Part shown: positions 53,246 through 62,599 of the stretch, in pieces
Numbering within the stretch: position 1 is the first letter of the stretch
How the letters are laid out: each line of letters opens with the position of its first letter
From: Halobacillus mangrovi
Lineage (GTDB): Bacteria; Bacillota; Bacilli; Bacillales; Halobacillaceae
NCBI RefSeq assembly: GCF_002097535.1
Contig: NZ_CP020772.1
Location: 3,100,001 to 3,164,000 of the forward strand
Direction of reading: 5' to 3'
Length of the DNA: 64,000 nt
Position numbers and translations under genes: made by a program
Notes under the pieces: generated by a model
What the model was told of the DNA's origin: nothing
Database searches by the model: none
What the model saw: the letters and a program-made list of their open reading frames with translations, nothing else

Positions 53246-55546
53246 TTATATCTTCTGATATAAGTCTTCAGGGATCTGTTCTAGAAAATGACTTTTTTCC
53301 TTTTGATAAAAGATATCCAGTTCATGCATCGCTCTCGTACAGGCAGTATAGAAGAGTTTCCTTTCTTCTTCCCGGTAATAAGTTTTATCTGATGCATCTG
53401 GAATAATGACGGCATCAAACTCTATCCCTTTTGCTAAATAAGCAGGGAGCACTAGCACCCCTTTTTCAAAGGTTTGCGACTCTTTATAAATAAGTCTTGC
53501 TTCAATCGTATTTTTTAATTGATCATAAAGGTTTATCGCATCCTTTTTCGTACGGGTAAGGACGGCTACCGTTTCGTACCCTTCCTTTAGTCTCTCGTTC
53601 ACGGTTTTCTCCACTTCCGCCACAGCATCGCTCGATATTTTATGAAGTCGAGGCTTATTCCCTTCACGGTTAAATGCCTCGATCTTTTCCCCTCCAGGGA
53701 TCATCGGCTTCGTAAACTCGACGATTGGTTTGGTGGATCGATAGCTGCGCATCAACTGTATCCGTTCGGTATCTTCGTTTACTTCCTTTGCTTCTAAGAC
53801 ACTCGGCACATCCGAAAATAACGTGTGGATTGCCTGATTGTAATCTCCTAATAGATTGAAGCGGGCATTTGGAAACAGCTGCTGAATGTATTTCATCTGA
53901 AACGGTGAATAATCCTGAGCTTCATCAACAAATACATGGCGAATATCCGTATTCACTCTTCTTCCTTCGATTTGATCCTTTAAATAAAGATAAGGGGTAA
54001 TGTCCTCGGCATACAACTGATTCTTTTCTATGGCTGCTTGAGTATAATCCGCCACACCATACCAGTGCTCTTCTCCATTAGATTTTACTATTTCGTAAAA
54101 CTGATGGTACAACTTCTTCATCTGGATAAATTTCAGATTTGCAACCTTCTTTCTCAGTGGGTGCATAGCTCGTTGAACGACTAATTTAGTTAAAAGCTCC
54201 TGCTCCCTCTCGAAATCATCAAAGGTCTCCTCATCAAAATTCTGATGACTTTGTAACTCTTTATAGGTGTGTAAATAGTCCTCTTTACTTAGAAACGCCG
54301 CTTCTTCCTCTGGCCAGTCTTTTGTTCGTTCTTCTGCCTCTAGCTCATCCAGTTTGCTTAAAAGCCAATTCTTTACACTCTCCACTCTGTTCGGGATGCT
54401 TCCGCTAGACCGATAAAAGGACCCCTTTATTGCATCTGCTGAAACAATCTTTCTCCCTCTGAACGTAATATTCTTAAACAGCATTCCCTTATCTTCTAAC
54501 CTTTTTACATACGCATCTAACTGGTCTTTTAATGCAACCGCTGCTTTTAGCTGAATCCCTTTTTCCCTGTCGCTATACCATCGATCCTCAGTGTGATCAA
54601 GCAGGTATTCAAGCTGCTCAAACGGCGTTTCCACCTTAAACTCGTGCTCCACACGGCCAGCGGCATATTCCTGAAAGGTCATCTGGCGCATGTTTTCTTC
54701 TCCGAGTTCTGGTAGAACGGAAGACACATAACTCATAAACATGTGGTTTGGAGAGAATAAAAGGATTTGATCTGCGGTTATTGATTTTCGGTCACGATAA
54801 AGCAAATAAGCAATTCTCTGCATGGCGGCTGATGTCTTCCCACTACCCGCTACCCCTTGCACCATAAGTATCTTGTTCTGCTTATAACGAATAATTTTGT
54901 TTTGTTCCTTTTGAATCGTTGCGACAATCCCTCTCATCTGAGCACTCGCATTACTGCCCAGGGCCTGCTGCAGCAGCTCATCCCCAATCGTCACCCCTGT
55001 ATCGAACATTCCTTTTAAAAGACCTTCCCGAATGATGAATTGACGCTTCAGCTCCATTTCTCCTTCAATTTCTCCTTCGGGTGTTTCATAACGAGCTGGC
55101 CCCGGAGAATAATCATAGTACATACTCGAAATAGGAGCTCTCCAGTCATAAATTAAAAAGTCTTCTTTTTTTCTATCCATCAAAGATCCTATACCGATGT
55201 AAATGGATTCTTTCTTCCCATCTTCTACAAAATCGATTCGGCCAAAATAGGGAGAATGCTGCTGACGACCATACTGATCCACGAGCTTATCAAACTGCCC
55301 GTAGCTCCGTTCCCTCTCTGCTAACAATTCTGCCTGCTGTTTAATACTTGCATAGGTCTCAATGACCTCATCAGGTTCATCTATGTTGACTGTAACATCA
55401 TCCCAGAAACCTTTTCTCAGTTGTTGAATATCCTCTTTTGCCGTTTGGTTATCGTTGATGATTTGCTGTCTCTTTTCAGATAATAAGCGAGTAATAAAAT
55501 CAATCCGTGATTGTTCTTCTTCCCATTCAACCGTATTCTTATCCAT
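53246..55546 (-). CDS. HelD-type UvrD-like helicase / RNA polymerase recycling factor (copy 2)
   Basis: 766 residues with the same architecture as copy 1: N-terminal coiled arm (about 5-95), Walker A QGVAGSGKTSAA near 235, motif II VFVDEAQDYS near 540, and YTACTRAMHELDIFY at the end. The two copies differ at most positions outside the motifs, so this is an old paralogue or separate HelD subclass rather than a recent duplicate. GGAGTGG precedes the ATG. Expected to act on stalled RNA polymerase. Single gene. Confidence 0.85.
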   Translation of the reverse strand: MDKNTVEWEEEQSRIDFITRLLSEKRQQIINDNQTAKEDIQQLRKGFWDDVTVNIDEPDEVIETYASIKQQAELLAERERSYGQFDKLVDQYGRQQHSPYFGRIDFVEDGKKESIYIGIGSLMDRKKEDFLIYDWRAPISSMYYDYSPGPARYETPEGEIEGEMELKRQFIIREGLLKGMFDTGVTIGDELLQQALGSNASAQMRGIVATIQKEQNKIIRYKQNKILMVQGVAGSGKTSAAMQRIAYLLYRDRKSITADQILLFSPNHMFMSYVSSVLPELGEENMRQMTFQEYAAGRVEHEFKVETPFEQLEYLLDHTEDRWYSDREKGIQLKAAVALKDQLDAYVKRLEDKGMLFKNITFRGRKIVSADAIKGSFYRSSGSIPNRVESVKNWLLSKLDELEAEERTKDWPEEEAAFLSKEDYLHTYKELQSHQNFDEETFDDFEREQELLTKLVVQRAMHPLRKKVANLKFIQMKKLYHQFYEIVKSNGEEHWYGVADYTQAAIEKNQLYAEDITPYLYLKDQIEGRRVNTDIRHVFVDEAQDYSPFQMKYIQQLFPNARFNLLGDYNQAIHTLFSDVPSVLEAKEVNEDTERIQLMRSYRSTKPIVEFTKPMIPGGEKIEAFNREGNKPRLHKISSDAVAEVEKTVNERLKEGYETVAVLTRTKKDAINLYDQLKNTIEARLIYKESQTFEKGVLVLPAYLAKGIEFDAVIIPDASDKTYYREEERKLFYTACTRAMHELDIFYQKEKSHFLEQIPEDLYQKI

Positions 55547-55705
55547 AGAACCACCACTCCATCATCTTTTTAGTCTAATCTCTTGACAACTGCTAGCTCT
55601 TAATGTAAAATTATAATTGGATACTTATGAAAAAATATAAAATCCAAGAGATAGATGGTATATATTCTACACGAGAAGGTGTTTGAATACAACCTAAAAT
55701 ATAAT

Positions 55706-55741
55706 AAAAAAGCCAAGCAACCATTGTTGCTTGGCTTTTCT
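55706..55741. terminator. Terminator of yhbH
   Basis: AAAAGCCAAGCAAC and GTTGCTTGGCTTTT form a 14-bp stem, with T and A runs on either side. Confidence 0.88.
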
Positions 55742-55745
55742 TTTT

Positions 55746-56909
55746 TTAACTCAATACCTCTTCTGCATTTTCTTCACTGAAAAATTGTTTCATCGCATGG
55801 AAGACGTCCGCTTTTTTGCGTAGAATATAGTAGCGGAATTTAGGATGATCAATGTTTTTATACGCTTGCATTAAACTAGAGGATCGATTATATTGATTGA
55901 CTTCCCCATACCCGAACATTTGCGAAACTTCTATTAACTCCTCAATCAAAGCCAGGCAGCGTTTGTTATCAGACGTTAAGTTATCCCCGTCTGAGAAGTG
56001 GAACGGATAAATATTGTACCGTTCAGGTGAATACTTCGTGTTAATCAATTCTAATGCCTTGCGGTAAGCAGATGAACAAATCGTACCGCCGCTTTCTCCT
56101 TTTGAGAAGAAGTCTTCTTCACTTACAACTTTAGCTTGAGTGTGGTGAGCAACAAACTCAATTTCTACAGTTTCATAATTTTTGTTAAGGAAACGGTTCA
56201 TCCAAAAGAAGAAACTTCTAGCCATATACTTTTCCCATTGCCCCATCGATCCACTTGTATCCATCATAGCAATAACAACAGCCTTGGATTGCGGCTTCGT
56301 TTTTTCATCCCATGTTTTAAAACGGATATCTTCAGGATAGATCGGGGAGAATGAAGCTTCCCCACCTAAGGCATTTCGTTTATACGCTTCAAGCATTGTT
56401 CTTTTCTTATCGATATTTCCAGTTAATCCAGTCTTACGGATATCACTGAATTCAATATCTGTATGAACGATATTGTCCTTCTCTTTCTCATCAAGGTTCG
56501 GTAAGGTCAGCTCTTTAAATAAAGCCTCTTCAAGCTCTGCCAACGAAACTTCTGCTTCATAGTAATCTTCACCAGCTTGATCACCTGCTCCATCTCCATC
56601 GCCAGGCTTACCTTTTGATTGAGGCGCTTGAGCAACCACATCGCCGACTTCGCTGTCTCCATCTCCTTGCCCTGCATGTTTATTCTTTTCATAATTGTAA
56701 CGAATCTTATATTCATCAAGCGAACGAATCGGTATCTTAACGACACGCTTCCCATTCGACATTACAATGTTCTCTTCGGTAATCAAATCCGGCAATTGTT
56801 TATTCATCGCATCTTTTACTTTTTCTTGATGTCGCCGCTGATCGTCATAGCCTTTCCGATGGAGGGACCAGTCGTCTTCGGCGATTACGAAACTCTTCTC
56901 TTCATCCAT
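55746..56909 (-). CDS. yhbH: Sporulation protein YhbH (DUF444)
   Basis: 387 residues, near B. subtilis YhbH (392). An N-terminal [21 protein letters not shown] segment, a Gly/Asp/Gln-rich linker (about 85-110), and a VWA-like domain with [14 protein letters not shown] (metal-binding DxSxS, near 212-224) and [15 protein letters not shown]. It works with PrkA and SpoVR-type proteins in sporulation; the activity is unknown. AGGAGGG precedes the ATG. A sigma-E-like -10 (CATACGAT, 56942-56949) lies upstream. prkA is not next to it here. Confidence 0.92.
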
Positions 56910-56949
56910 AAATTTTCTCCCTCCTAATCGAGTATTACTCTATCGTATG

Positions 56950-57194
56950 CAGGTCCACGTAAATGGATGAAGGATATTGAAATATGAATGGTTTATTTCT
57001 CTTTTTTTTATTTTGATAAAAGGCTTGAGAATGCGGTTTACAGCACTGCCTGTCTTAGAATAACACTTAGAACATTAGGCGGGAGCCTCTATTCCTATGT
57101 AAAATAAGCGATCCTTTTAAGAGGGATACTGATCATGCACTTTCTGGTCTCTATACCCGAACTCACACTTTCTGTTCCTTAACTCTTCTCCTAA
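56950..57194. other. Gene-free stretch between yhbH and yidC2
   Basis: About 250 bp without a supported ORF, repeat or RNA structure. Confidence 0.5.
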
Positions 57195-57226
57195 CAAAAA
57201 CCCCGCTGTATAGATTACAGCGGGGA
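57195..57226 (-). terminator. Terminator of mifM-like/yidC2
   Basis: CCCCGCTGTA and TACAGCGGGG form a 10-bp stem, followed by TTTTTG on the minus strand. Confidence 0.88.
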
Positions 57227-57234
57227 ATGCTTAT

Positions 57235-57978
57235 TTAAATCGTTTGACTATATAATCGCTTGGATATCAATGTTTGGATGATGAGGAACAGTCCTCCAAC
57301 TGCCCAATATAACGGTAAGGCCGATGGAGCAGAAAAGGATATGATCAAGATCATAATAGGAGAAAGAAGACCAATCAACTTCATTTGCTTTTGCTGATCA
57401 GCTGAAATCCCTATGAGCGACACTCTGTATTGGATGAAATACAGAAGACCGGCAATAAGTGCCATCGTCACATCCGCTTCACCCAGGTTAAACCAAAGGA
57501 ACGAATGAGTAGCAATTTCTTCTGAGCTCCGGATCGCGTAATATACTCCCATAAAAATAGGCATTTGAATGAGAATCGGTAAGCAGCCCATATTCATAGG
57601 GTTAATGTTATGGGTTTTGTAAAGTTTCATCATTTCCGCTTGAATTTCTTGCTTGTCTTCTTGGGTCTTCGCTTCTTTCAAACGGTTTTGAATATCATTC
57701 ATCTCTGGTTTGACTGCTTCCATTTTAACTCGCATTTCTTGACTATTCTTATACGTCTTCAACATTAGCGGAAGTAAGATAAAACGGATACCTAAGGTTA
57801 TGATGATAATTGCAATGCCATAATTATCACCAAAAGCTTCTGCTACCATTTTAATCGCACTTACAAAGGGATCAACGAAATAGTGATTAAAGAACCCTGC
57901 ATTATTTCCATCTGGATTACTGGAACACCCAGTTAAAAACAAACCAATACCTGCCAAAACACTTACTAATCGTTTCAA
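57235..57978 (-). CDS. yidC2: YidC/Oxa1-type membrane protein insertase, second copy (YidC2/YqjG-like)
   Basis: 247 residues: lipoprotein signal with lipobox FLTGC (Cys18), then five membrane segments. The conserved Arg of the hydrophilic groove is Arg65 in [34 protein letters not shown] near 135-158 is the family core. It inserts proteins into the membrane with or without Sec. It is not beside rnpA/jag, and follows a MifM-like gene by 28 bp, so it is the inducible second insertase. The start is TTG; its Shine-Dalgarno GGAGG is half buried in a hairpin. Confidence 0.88.
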
Positions 57979-58029
57979 ATTACATCCTCCTCTTTATTCG
58001 TTTATATTAAGCACGAATAAAGAGGTAAT
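57979..58029 (-). promoter_or_regulatory. Shine-Dalgarno-sequestering hairpin between mifM-like and yidC2
   Basis: CCTCTTTATTCGT (58013-58025), inside the last codons of the upstream ORF, pairs perfectly over 13 bp with ACGAATAAAGAGG (57989-58001); outer ATTAC/GTAAT can extend it. The stem takes in the first half of the yidC2 Shine-Dalgarno AAAGAGGAGG. A ribosome stalled near codons 87-91 would open the stem and expose the site. Confidence 0.8.
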
Positions 58030-58297
58030 GGTCGTCATCCTTAGAACTTTCCTTCCTGCGTACTGTTCGTTGCAGCCAATGAATCATTTCATTGGCACAC
58101 TCCACTACATCGTCTAACACAAGGAGTTCTGGATCATTCTTTTTTGGGACCATGTGACGGGAAGTCATCCACCCTGAAGTGTCAGCCACCATATGTGTCC
58201 AAATCGCTTCCAGGGCTATACTAACCAACACACTTATATAAATCGACAGAAACAATAAATCATAAGATCCGTCTAATAGTTCAACTAATATATTCAT
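58007..58297 (-). CDS. mifM: MifM-like ribosome-arrest regulatory peptide
   Basis: 96 residues (MifM has 95): one N-terminal membrane segment (about 10-35) and a polar C-terminal half. Near the end Ile72 and Trp74 are followed, 13 residues after Trp, by acidic Asp87-Asp88-Asp89, as I recall for the MifM arrest region (Trp73 and acidic residues from 86). In B. subtilis MifM is itself a YidC substrate; when insertion fails it stalls the ribosome and opens the yidC2 start. Position, size, topology and the downstream hairpin all agree, though overall sequence is diverged. Arrest itself is inferred. Confidence 0.7.
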   Translation of the reverse strand: MNILVELLDGSYDLLFLSIYISVLVSIALEAIWTHMVADTSGWMTSRHMVPKKNDPELLVLDDVVECANEMIHWLQRTVRRKESSKDDDHYLFIRA

Positions 58298-58395
58298 AAC
58301 AATCTCTTTTCTAAAAAGTCTTAGTTGTTTATACGAATTACATTACTAGAGGTTTCATATAAATTCAACCACACCGTGTTTATATTTCCAATTAA

Positions 58396-58430
58396 ACAAC
58401 CCGCCAGCAAGGAGCTGACGGGTTGTTTTT
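58396..58430 (-). terminator. Terminator of odhAB
   Basis: AACCCGTCAGC and GCTGGCGGGTT form an 11-bp stem with one wobble pair, followed by GTTT on the minus strand; T5 on the plus side. Confidence 0.88.
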
Positions 58431-58431
58431 A

Positions 58432-59739
58432 TTAACCTTCTAGTAATAAGTCGTATGGATCTTCAATCATTTCTTTGATACGACGCAGGAATTGGACGGC
58501 TTCTTTACCATCGACGATTCTGTGGTCGTAGGAGAGCGCGATGTACATCATCGGACGAGCCTGAATCGTATCATCCGGCATAACTTTGGCACGCTTTTCA
58601 ATGTTATGCAATCCAAGAATACCGACTTGAGGAGAATTCAAGATTGGTGTTGAAAGCATAGAACCGAAAATTCCACCATTTGTAATCGTGAAGGATCCGC
58701 CTTGCAAGTCATCCAGCTGCAGTTCTTTATTACGGGCTTTCGTTGCAAGATCTGCGATTCCTTTTTCGATTCCGGCAAAGTCAAGACGGTCAGCATCGCG
58801 GACAACCGGCACAACTAAACCTTCATCAGTAGAAACAGCCATTCCGATGTCATAGAATTTCTTCTTCACAATTTCATTCCCTTGGATCTCTGCATTGATC
58901 AATGGGAATTCTTTCAGCGCACCAACGGCCGCTTTTGTGAAGAAGGACATGAAGCCAAGCTTAATGTCATGCTTTTTCTGGAACGACTCTTTACGGTCAC
59001 TGCGAAGCTTCATGACGTTCGTCATATCAACTTCGTTGAATGTTGTTAGCATCGCTGAATTCTGCTGTGCTTCAACTAGGCGCTTCGCAATCGTTTGACG
59101 GCGGCGAGACATTTTAACGCGTTCCACCGGTTTGTCAAATTCCGTTTTCTCGTTATTCTTCTCTTGTTTCTTCTCTTTTTTAGGTTCTTCCTTCTTCTCT
59201 TCTTTCTTACTGCCGCCTTTAGCTGCCGCGTCTACATCTTCCGGACGGATACGGCCTAATGGATCTCTTGCAGATATTTCACTCAGATCAATGCCAAGTT
59301 CACGAGCACGCTTACGAGCTGCAGGAGTTGCAATAATGTCTTTGTTGCTGTCTTTTGATTGCTCTTTTTGGCTGGAATCAGAAGAAGATTTCTCTTCTTT
59401 CTGTTTTGAAGCTTCTTCTTTTTTCTCTTCTTGTTTATTTTGTTCTTTTTCTTCTTCTTTCTCTTCTTCCTCAGAAGAATCATCGTCAGACCCGCCTGCT
59501 TCACCGTTCTCATCCACTTTAGCGATGACATCTCCGACTTCGACATCATCTCCTTCGTCTTTCAGGAGCTCTGCTATAACGCCACTTGCGTCTGCATTTA
59601 CTTCAACGTTTACTTTGTCTGTTTCTAATTCAAGAATTGGATCGCCCTTCTCTACCTGATCACCTTTTTTTACTAGCCATTCCGCGATCGTTCCTTCTGT
59701 GATAGATTCAGCTAATTCAGGGACTTTAATTTCCTTCAT
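58432..59739 (-). CDS. odhB: Dihydrolipoyllysine succinyltransferase, E2 of 2-oxoglutarate dehydrogenase
   Basis: 435 residues. Lipoyl domain (1-76) with the lipoylated Lys in ETDKVNVEV; a very Glu/Lys/Ser-rich linker (about 80-140); an E3-binding domain (about 143-180, [19 protein letters not shown]); a second charged linker; and the catalytic domain (about 205-435) with SYDHRIVDG (His and Asp of the active site). It transfers succinyl to CoA in the citric acid cycle. The Met at 59739 follows AAAGGAGG. It overlaps odhA by 14 bp. The extra-acidic linker is in keeping with salt adaptation. Confidence 0.95.
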
Positions 59740-62599
59740 TTGAATTTCCTCCTTTAGACATCTGTAGCGCCTCATGAATTATACGATTTTGCTCGGTTTT
59801 ATGAATATTTGGTTCTCCAACTGATGGCGACGCTCGGTGCGGACGGCCAACATAGCGGTGGATTTGATCACCTTTTAATAGCTTGTGGAGGATTCCTTCA
59901 ACAAAGTACCAGCTACCCATATTTTGCGGTTCTTCTTGGACCCATACCAATTCTTCCAGATTTGGATAGGTTTCAAGAATCTCTGCCAGTCTCTTTTCAG
60001 GGAAAGGATAGATTTGTTCGATGCGTACAGCGTCAATGGTTTCAAAAGATTGATCCGCATTTTCCACTGTATCTTCAATATCTACCATGATCTTTCCGCT
60101 TCCAAGCAGCAAAGTTTTCACTTTTTCCCTTGCTTTATCATCTTCTTTCGTCAATCCAGGCTGCCTCATGATCGGCTGGAATTTCCCTTCGCTGAAATGA
60201 GTGCCTTCTACAGCGACACGCTGGTTTCTGAGCAAGCTCTTCGGACTCATCAGTACCAGCGGACGAGCTTCTTCACGATCACTTATAGCTGCTTGTCGAC
60301 GAAGCAAGTGGAAGTATTGAGCTGATGACGTTACATTTGCCACCGTCCAGTTATTTTCTGCTCCCATTTGCAAGAATCGTTCAAGGCGGGCACTTGAGTG
60401 TTCAGGCCCTTGTCCTTCATATCCGTGTGGGAGCAAGAAAATCATATTGGATTTTTCTCCCCATTTTGCACGTCCAGCAGAAATGAATTGGTCAAAAATA
60501 ACTTGACCGGCGTTGGCAAAATCACCAAACTGAGCTTCCCAGAGTACAAGCGTTTCTGGAGCCTGGACGCTATATCCATATTCAAATCCGATGACACCTG
60601 CCTCGGAAAGCGGGCTATTATGAATATCAAAAGACGCATTGGCTTGTTCTAAGCCATGCAGCGGACAATAGGTTTCACCTGTTTCCACATCGTGCAGCAC
60701 CATGTGACGGTGAGCGAATGTTCCTCGCTCTGTATCTTGTCCTGTAATGCGGATTGGGCGGCCATCTTCAAGAATGGAAGCAAAAGCCAACGCTTCAGCT
60801 GTCGCCCAGTCCACTTTTTGACCATCTTCTAACATCTTGCTGCGACGCTGAAGGATTTTTTCAAGTTTCTTAAAGCCGTTGAATCCTTCTGGACGCTTCA
60901 ACAAACCTTCATTCAGGCCGCGCAGCCTTTCAAGGTCAACAGCTGTTTCGATTTCATCAAGCGGCTGTTCTACTCCGCTTGGTCGGTCTTTGACATCTGC
61001 CGCAGTGGCTTCATGTTCATCCATATTGTTGTAAATCTCACGAAGCTCTTCCTCTACTTTCTCTTTCATATCAGCAAGAGTTCCATCTTCAACAATGGAT
61101 TCTTCTTGTAATGTCTTTTCATATACCGCAGCAGCTGTCGGATGCTCATCAATTTCGCTGTAGAGTCTTGGCTGTGTAGCACGTGGCTCATCCATTTCAT
61201 TATGTCCGAATCGACGGTACCCTACCAGATCGATTAAAAAGTCTTTATGGAACTTTTGACGATATTCATACGACAATGCCATAGCAGATAAACACGCTAC
61301 CGGATCATCGGCATTTACGTGGACGATCGGAATTTCAAATCCTTTAGCCAAGTCACTTGCATAACGAGTCGAGCGGCCGTGTTTACGATTCGTCGTAAAT
61401 CCAACCAAGTTGTTTGCAATAATGTGTACAGTTCCACCGGTTCTGTATCCAGGAAGATCACTCATGTTCAAGGTTTCAGCGACTACACCTTCTCCGATGA
61501 ATGCCGCATCTCCGTGAATAAGAAGACCAAACGCTTCATCTTTATCCATTTGAGCGTATCCAGGCTCTGAACGGTCATCCTGAGCCGCTCGCGTAAACCC
61601 TTCCACAACTGGATTGACGTATTCCAAGTGAGATGGATTGTGACTGAGTGTAACACGAGTAGCCGATTGCTGCCCGTTCTCAATCTCTCGACGTGCACCA
61701 AAGTGATATTTCACGTCTCCCGTCCAGCCATAGTTGATCCCTGTTGAACCTTCGGATGGAACCAATTCCTTATCAGGGGAATGGTGAAATTCAGAGAAAA
61801 TGCGTTCGTATGGTTTACCCAAAATATGAGCAAGCACATTCAAACGGCCCCTGTGAGCCATGCCCATCATAATATTCTTAATCTTGTCACCGGATGCTAA
61901 TTGAATAATGTGATCGAGCATCGGCACCATAACATCCAGACCCTCAATGGAAAAGCGTTTTTGCGCTACAAAGGTTTTTCCAAGGAAGTTCTCAAACCCC
62001 TCCACTGCTGCTAACCTGCGTAGCAACTGTTTCTTTTCTTCATTACTGAGCGATACACGAAATGAACCGGTATCAACTTTCTCTTGAAGCCATTTTCTTT
62101 CATCTTCATTGTAGACATGGCCAAATTCAAACGAAATGGTACCTGCGTACCTCTCTTTTAATGTATTAACCACTTGAAGAGCATTTTGAAGCTTCAATGG
62201 GGAATCAGGCCAAACCCATTCAGCAGGCATCTCTTCCAGATCCTTTTCTTTTAATCCGTATGTTTCTAATTCGAGTAAATTTGTCGTAGGACGATCATAA
62301 CTCCCTACGGCATAAATATTTGCCTGTAAGTGGCCATGACGACGAATAGCCTCAACAAGTTTGATTGCTGAGGTCACTTTTGATATGTCTTTATCCGTTG
62401 GCGACACAGCACCATTGGTTTTCACAGACGTATCTCCCGCCATCCAGTCAGGCGCACCGTGCTCGTCGAACAATTCCTTTAATGAAGGATCGACTGCACT
62501 CGGATCGTTTGTGTATTGTTCATATTGTTCTTCAATATACCCCATGTTGGGGCCATGGAAATTTTCCCAAAATTTTTCATTGGAGCCTTGATTAGACAC
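59726..62599 (-). CDS. odhA: 2-Oxoglutarate dehydrogenase E1 component
   Basis: 957 residues, thiamine-diphosphate enzyme that decarboxylates 2-oxoglutarate and passes the succinyl group to OdhB lipoate. Family signs: N-terminal [33 protein letters not shown] near 250, [18 protein letters not shown] near 370 (cofactor site), NADDP near 433, and [19 protein letters not shown] near 745. The GTG start at 62599 follows GGGGG at 8 nt; the longer frame begins five codons earlier at TTG. First gene of the odhAB operon. Confidence 0.94.

Follow-up and report, generated by a model that had tools for sequence, protein, structure and literature searches.

We suggest that the short open reading frame (uORF) immediately 5′ of yidC2 in Halobacillus mangrovi encodes a divergent MifM, a YidC-dependent membrane peptide that would arrest the ribosome and expose the yidC2 Shine-Dalgarno (SD) sequence when membrane insertion is poor; we assign this reading a probability of about 0.86. 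The observed part of this account comprises the gene pair, conservation of the uORF at the protein level, a covarying hairpin, a family relationship and a spacing within the peptide. Judged by sequence comparison, the switch is most likely a Halobacillus member of the MifM system already known from Bacillus subtilis and is ordinary in kind. The features concerned all lie on the minus strand of the window, by which we mean the whole 64,000-nucleotide stretch of DNA that was analysed.

58007..58297, minus strand: uORF encoding a 96-aa putative MifM-family peptide (uORF 5′ of yidC2 in 14 of 14 family genomes)
58196..58258, minus strand: predicted transmembrane segment, residues 14-34 (best 21-residue hydropathy window)
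58028..58090, minus strand: predicted arrest region, residues 70-90, EMIHWLQRTVRRKESSKDDDH (alignment A1)
58013..58025, minus strand: hairpin 5′ arm, CCUCUUUAUUCGU, within codons 91-95 (covariation)
57989..58001, minus strand: hairpin 3′ arm, ACGAAUAAAGAGG, overlapping the SD (covariation)
57986..57991, minus strand: yidC2 SD, AGGAGG, half inside the stem (sequence)
57235..57978, minus strand: yidC2, lipoprotein-type insertase of the YidC/Oxa1 family, presumed target (TIGR03592, 176.7 bits; PF02096, 149.4 bits)
57201..57225, minus strand: terminator-like stem-loop 3′ of yidC2, a 10-bp stem followed by TTTTT (consensus match only)

The uORF-yidC2 Pair and the uORF Peptide

The pair sits between odhB and yhbH. 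The uORF (58007-58297) runs for 96 sense codons from an ATG start to a TAA stop, and yidC2, which has a TTG start and the lipobox LTGC, begins 28 nt past its end; these coordinates and the lipobox confirm an earlier description, made from the sequence alone, of a 96-codon frame with one N-terminal membrane segment ahead of a lipoprotein-type yidC. The genome (4.14 Mb, one contig) carries another yidC elsewhere, the product of which is 40% identical to YidC2. With a uORF placed immediately 5′ of yidC2 in a genome that has another YidC, the MifM-type setting is present.

The peptide has a single N-terminal hydrophobic segment (residues 14-34, mean Kyte-Doolittle value 2.05) preceded by an acidic N-terminus with a net charge of −3, and an N-out/C-in topology is expected. 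Toward its other end W74, R77, T78, V79, R81 and D89 are invariant in all 14 aligned sequences (alignment A1). Among eight family sequences, pN/pS is 0.28 in the arrest region, 0.41 in residues 1-36 (which include the transmembrane segment), 0.66 in the stem codons and 0.76 in the linker; purifying selection acts more strongly on the arrest region than on the linker, and by the measure of these substitutions the uORF is a real gene, selected at the protein level. In the same sequences pS is 0.50 in the stem codons versus 0.75-0.88 in the other uORF regions, a lowering that is expected if those codons double as RNA structure. Single-sequence searches of NCBIfam, Pfam and the PDB with the peptide returned no family and no structure, and Rfam gave no match across positions 55000-61000. 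The named close homologues of the uORF product are all from Halobacillus and annotated as hypothetical proteins, entries that now gain a specific, testable candidate function.

Distribution among Relatives

Within the genus the uORF was matched in 8 of 22 genomes (E ≤ 0.01), and yidC2 is present in those same eight; within the family yidC2 occurs in 14 of 44 genomes and is preceded by a uORF in every one. The hairpin described below accompanies the uORF in all 10 Halobacillus-like family genomes with yidC2. Absence from close relatives had been set beforehand as grounds for giving up the proposal; what we find is that the relatives bearing yidC2 keep the uORF, and the 10 Halobacillus-like ones the hairpin as well. 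All eight yidC2-bearing congeners have the pair upstream of yhbH and, provided that the stretch extends far enough, downstream of odhB. Neither gene was found in the other 14 congeners. In three of these (G002, G007 and G021) the contig stops short of odhB, and absence of the pair is not proven for them; in the other 11 the odhB-yhbH gap measures 185-967 nt and has no clear uORF or yidC2 inside. YidC2 residues 197-243 match the odhB-yhbH interval of G004 (locus L129) weakly, over a stop-containing sequence (E 3e-5 in ~580 nt) that may be the relic of a lost cassette. In one neighbouring genus (L047-L050; genomes G033, G036, G027 and G022) Ile or Phe replaces the otherwise near-invariant Trp, and in the last of these loci yidC2 is interrupted, yet the 96-codon uORF is still open.

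A profile of the 14 family peptides (A1), searched against 397 genomes representing 135 genera of the order, matched in 34 genomes and 20 genera. Of the 34 matched genomes, 30 supplied loci, and a yidC lies directly behind the uORF in 26 of the 28 loci examined; the two exceptions are in G295 and G034. An apparent lack of yidC2 in G295 was ruled out: a transposase-like ORF (IS110-type by reading) stands between the uORF and yidC2, the latter ~1.8 kb onward (L063/L139), and in G178, of the same genus, the pair is uninterrupted. The match in G034 runs antisense to what reads as an ABC-F-type gene and was discarded as chance. The scan of named genome contigs returned a single locus, L015 of Macrococcus epidermidis, with a relative of this yidC type that is 46% identical.

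The SD-hiding Hairpin

The sequence-only reading had proposed that the last uORF codons pair perfectly over 13 bp with a segment covering half of the yidC2 SD, and the arms at 58025-58013 and 58001-57989 form just such a stem around a loop (58012-58002) that contains the uORF stop codon. Counting distinct ones, the whole 64 kb has only five perfect inverted repeats of at least 13 bp with a loop of 3-30. The 81-nt piece containing the hairpin folds at −20.5 kcal/mol, versus −10.9 ± 2.5 kcal/mol for shuffles (z −3.79), and none of 200 shuffles did as well.

Covariation was assessed in 14 sequences, from 9 of the 10 family loci and 5 of the 6 loci of genus g41. Among 182 stem cells 93.4% are paired, and two-sided changes are found at 6 of the 13 stem pairs, in 20 cells. 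The covariation score is 0.347, a value reached by none of 500 shuffles (0.145 ± 0.021), and pairing falls to 37-67% when the partner is slid by one to three columns; a 10-sequence subset repeats this picture. The number of further pair types in the stem was no higher than in shuffles (258/500). By this comparative evidence the hairpin is a genuine RNA structure, with its stem rebuilt in relatives via compensatory changes. Alignment of orthologues, suggested at the outset as a check, has yielded both conserved arrest-region residues and compensatory stem changes.

The mean probability that the yidC2 SD is unpaired is 0.11 over the 10 family loci and 0.12 over 31 loci; the same measure applied to 22 yidC1 genes gives 0.67 (range 0.37-0.97). 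In H. mangrovi the 7-nt SD core has a mean unpaired probability of 0.28 without a ribosome, the highest among the ten family members, and the other half of the SD lies outside the stem; both points count against the proposed switch.

Relationship to MifM

B. subtilis MifM (YqzJ), which controls yidC2 (yqjG), is 95 residues long, against 96 here, and has in common with the uORF peptide an N-terminal transmembrane segment with an acidic start, an SD-hiding hairpin and a yidC2 target. A one-to-one comparison of the two peptides detects no similarity, and the relationship emerges from profiles, of which A2 is broad (29 sequences) and A5 holds five B. subtilis-group MifMs. Searched with A2, 177,635 PDB sequences gave B. 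subtilis MifM (3j9w) first, at E 0.01, in an alignment of nearly full length (residues 1-93); the next match stood at 0.66. By hhalign, A2 and A5 match with 83% probability (E 8.5e-6). In whole genomes A2 found G275 (8.5e-8), G085 (1.9e-7) and G179 (4.4e-6), and A5 found the same places at 2.9e-34, 1.2e-35 and 7.8e-60, respectively. Since A2 ranks MifM first and shares these three loci with A5, the identification of the uORF peptide as a divergent MifM, originally based on spacing alone, is supported by profile comparison. The family-only profile A1 gave no MifM match in the PDB and an hhalign probability of 0.4% against MifM; its sole PDB match, MotB (E 0.1), was taken as chance.

In the predicted arrest region W74 and D87 are 13 residues apart, and W73 and D86 of B. 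subtilis MifM are also 13 apart; the equality noted earlier between the two holds when counted on the 3j9w sequence, and the Trp and acidic cluster of each peptide align without a gap. The sequences of A2 share a core of W[ILFV]x[KR], then [VI]xR[KQ][ED], then three to five acidic residues, often followed by His. Relative to the published MifM arrest motif, RIxxWIxxxxxMNxxxxDEED (PMC7897499), the uORF peptide keeps the Trp, the following I/L and the acidic cluster at equal spacing. Unlike the B. subtilis peptide it lacks R69, M80 and N81, has an RTVRRKE-type core in place and differs in the sequence of its stem. D89 stands at W+15, a position equivalent to Glu88 of B. subtilis MifM, which is reported to contact the peptidyl transferase centre (PMC6037786). 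The distance from the end of the transmembrane segment to W+14 is 54-56 residues in eight members and 56 in B. subtilis MifM by equal measure, the segment being defined by a hydropathy window and W+14 standing in for the arrest site; the reported median spacing is 54 (PMC10987492). On the ribosomal side, uL22 residues 81-103 of H. mangrovi are identical to those of B. subtilis; a difference from E. coli in the uL22 loop is the reported explanation of MifM species specificity (PMC10987492).

The closest known systems also include other monitors of membrane insertion or secretion. CliM, a clostridial YidC monitor, likewise has a transmembrane segment and a C-terminal arrest region before yidC2, with an SD-masking stem-loop (PMC13183943); its paper states that it does not resemble known arrest peptides, and KYxIW, taken from its earlier name, is absent from the uORF peptide by reading. 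ApcA, encoded by an actinobacterial yidC2 uORF, is alike in placement and presumed logic and ends in R-A-P-G, a C-terminus that the uORF peptide lacks (PMC7897499; PMC10987492). By reading, none of the RAPP, RAPG or RAGP C-termini of ApcA, ApdA, ApdP and SecM occurs in the peptide. In Vibrio, a translocation gene likewise follows a regulated arrest, that of VemP, which controls secDF2 and monitors Sec; the HRIxGWKETNAMY motif of VemP is absent here (PMC7897499).

B. subtilis is where MifM, its hairpin and its multisite stalling have been described (PMC6037786), and 572 non-redundant MifM sequences have been reported from 592 Firmicutes genomes (PMC10987492). Our literature search, the sequence tables of the latter paper aside, found nothing linking MifM with Halobacillus.

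Proposed Mechanism and Modelled Opening of the SD

We envision the following sequence of events. The nascent C-terminus, from W74 to the acidic cluster, would arrest the ribosome with D89 near the peptidyl transferase centre. Insertion of the N-terminal segment would normally cancel the arrest; once the ribosome had departed, the 13-bp hairpin would fold and hide the yidC2 SD. When insertion is poor, the ribosome would be held at codons ~88-93 and cover the 5′ arm, leaving the SD exposed and permitting YidC2 to be made. YidC2 would then be a backup insertase, kept off by the hairpin at other times. Within this scheme we infer the stalling, the stall codon, the cancellation by YidC activity and the induction. 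M90 of uL22, a residue with a special role, lies within the identical stretch 81-103.

The opening of the SD by a ribosome is a modelled part of the account, in which mRNA was masked to a distance of 15 nt from the P-site codon and SD pairing recomputed. For G000 the predicted SD unpaired probability is 0.28 with no ribosome, 0.52 with the P-site at D87, 0.79 at D88, 0.62 at D89, 0.48 at H90 and 0.75-0.80 from Y91 onward. The modelled opening point follows the last acidic residue (r 0.80), lying no more than two codons from it in 29 of 31 loci, and 1 of 10,000 permutations was as good with 23 less redundant loci of the 31, a figure to be read knowing that this anchor was the third tried and was picked after two weaker ones. 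The first, a poorly defined acidic-window rule, gave r 0.39 (972 of 10,000 permutations as good), and the second, the Trp, gave r 0.46 (51 of 10,000). The SD barely opens in G119 and G027 (maximum 0.39 and 0.37), and beyond the 31 loci opening is weak or irregular in L100, L101, L103, L104, L137 and L138. Three B. subtilis-group loci (L134-L136), used as a positive control, were predicted to open at W+16/17; the main stalls of B. subtilis MifM are reported at codons 89-92, or W73+16 to +19 (PMC6037786), and the modelled opening coincides with the beginning of these stalls. In L137 and L138 the SD is poorly hidden (0.40-0.42). The last acidic codon lies a median of 44 nt from the SD (33-52 nt, sd 3.2) among the 31 loci and is the tightest of three landmarks, the others being the stop codon (sd 4.0) and the Trp (sd 4.6).

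Alternative Explanations

Ribosomes finishing the uORF might simply open the hairpin and aid yidC2 initiation, with neither arrest nor sensing. The hairpin and the close spacing would be enough for such plain translational coupling, the uORF stop codon falls in the loop, and our model gives an open SD with a ribosome on the last uORF codon as well. We nevertheless consider coupling unlikely, given that constraint on the peptide is strongest from the Trp to the acidic cluster (pN/pS 0.28 against 0.76 for the linker) and that it is the last acidic codon, rather than the stop or the Trp, whose distance to the SD varies least. An ORF selected at the protein level also argues against an RNA thermometer or protein-binding leader in which the A+U-rich, covarying stem that holds the SD would work alone and the ORF would be incidental; none of the 10 Halobacillus-like family loci has the stem without the ORF, and the stem is predicted to be stable at 37 °C. 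We give that idea almost no credence.

The sequence-only reading had further speculated that the peptide tracks sodium or membrane stress, and a sensor of sodium, osmotic or membrane stress, as opposed to YidC insertion capacity, is conceivable from the presumed salt adaptation of the host and the analogy with VemP. This part of the proposal found no support: nothing in the sequence bears on salt sensing, related uORFs occur in 20 of the 135 sampled genera of the order, B. subtilis-type MifM included, and no such pair was found in 14 of 22 congeners. We regard a stress signal as very improbable, and favor a divergent MifM that responds to insertion capacity.

Variation in the Arrest Sequence and in the uORF End

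A divergent MifM in Halobacillus would be of use as a source of natural variants of the arrest sequence, supplied along with covarying hairpins. These show what evolution fixes in an arrest peptide and its coupling to the SD, namely the Trp, the acidic cluster, the spacing and the stem, and what it releases, namely Arg69, Met80-Asn81 and the linker. We offer tentatively, at somewhat less than even odds, the bolder suggestion that the MifM arrest code has been rewritten in Halobacillus and many genera of the order, with the distance from the last acidic codon to the SD (~44 nt) held by selection. The rewritten code would read W[LI]x[KR]TVxR[KQ][ED]...DDDH, dispensing with three residues of the published motif opposite an identical uL22 loop (checked in H. 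mangrovi), and the uORF stop would have moved, in some lineages beyond the yidC2 start.

In nine loci of other genera (L079, L082, L088, L090, L095, L096, L098, L099 and L102) the yidC2 SD lies within the uORF, whose QGG or RGG codons form GGAGG and whose end is 52-67 nt into yidC2. In these loci the last acidic residue nevertheless precedes the SD by 42-54 nt; modelled SD opening is partial, and nearly none in L095, L098 and L099. Ribosomes reading through would pass over the start of yidC2, in contrast to the stop-in-loop layout of H. mangrovi.

Between odhB and the uORF lies an inverted repeat at 58398-58424 (minus strand, ACCCGTCAGC-TCCTT-GCTGGCGGGT), which resembles a terminator by reading and is absent from the list given by the terminator scan. 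If it is the terminator that it looks like, the uORF-yidC2 pair would have its own promoter.
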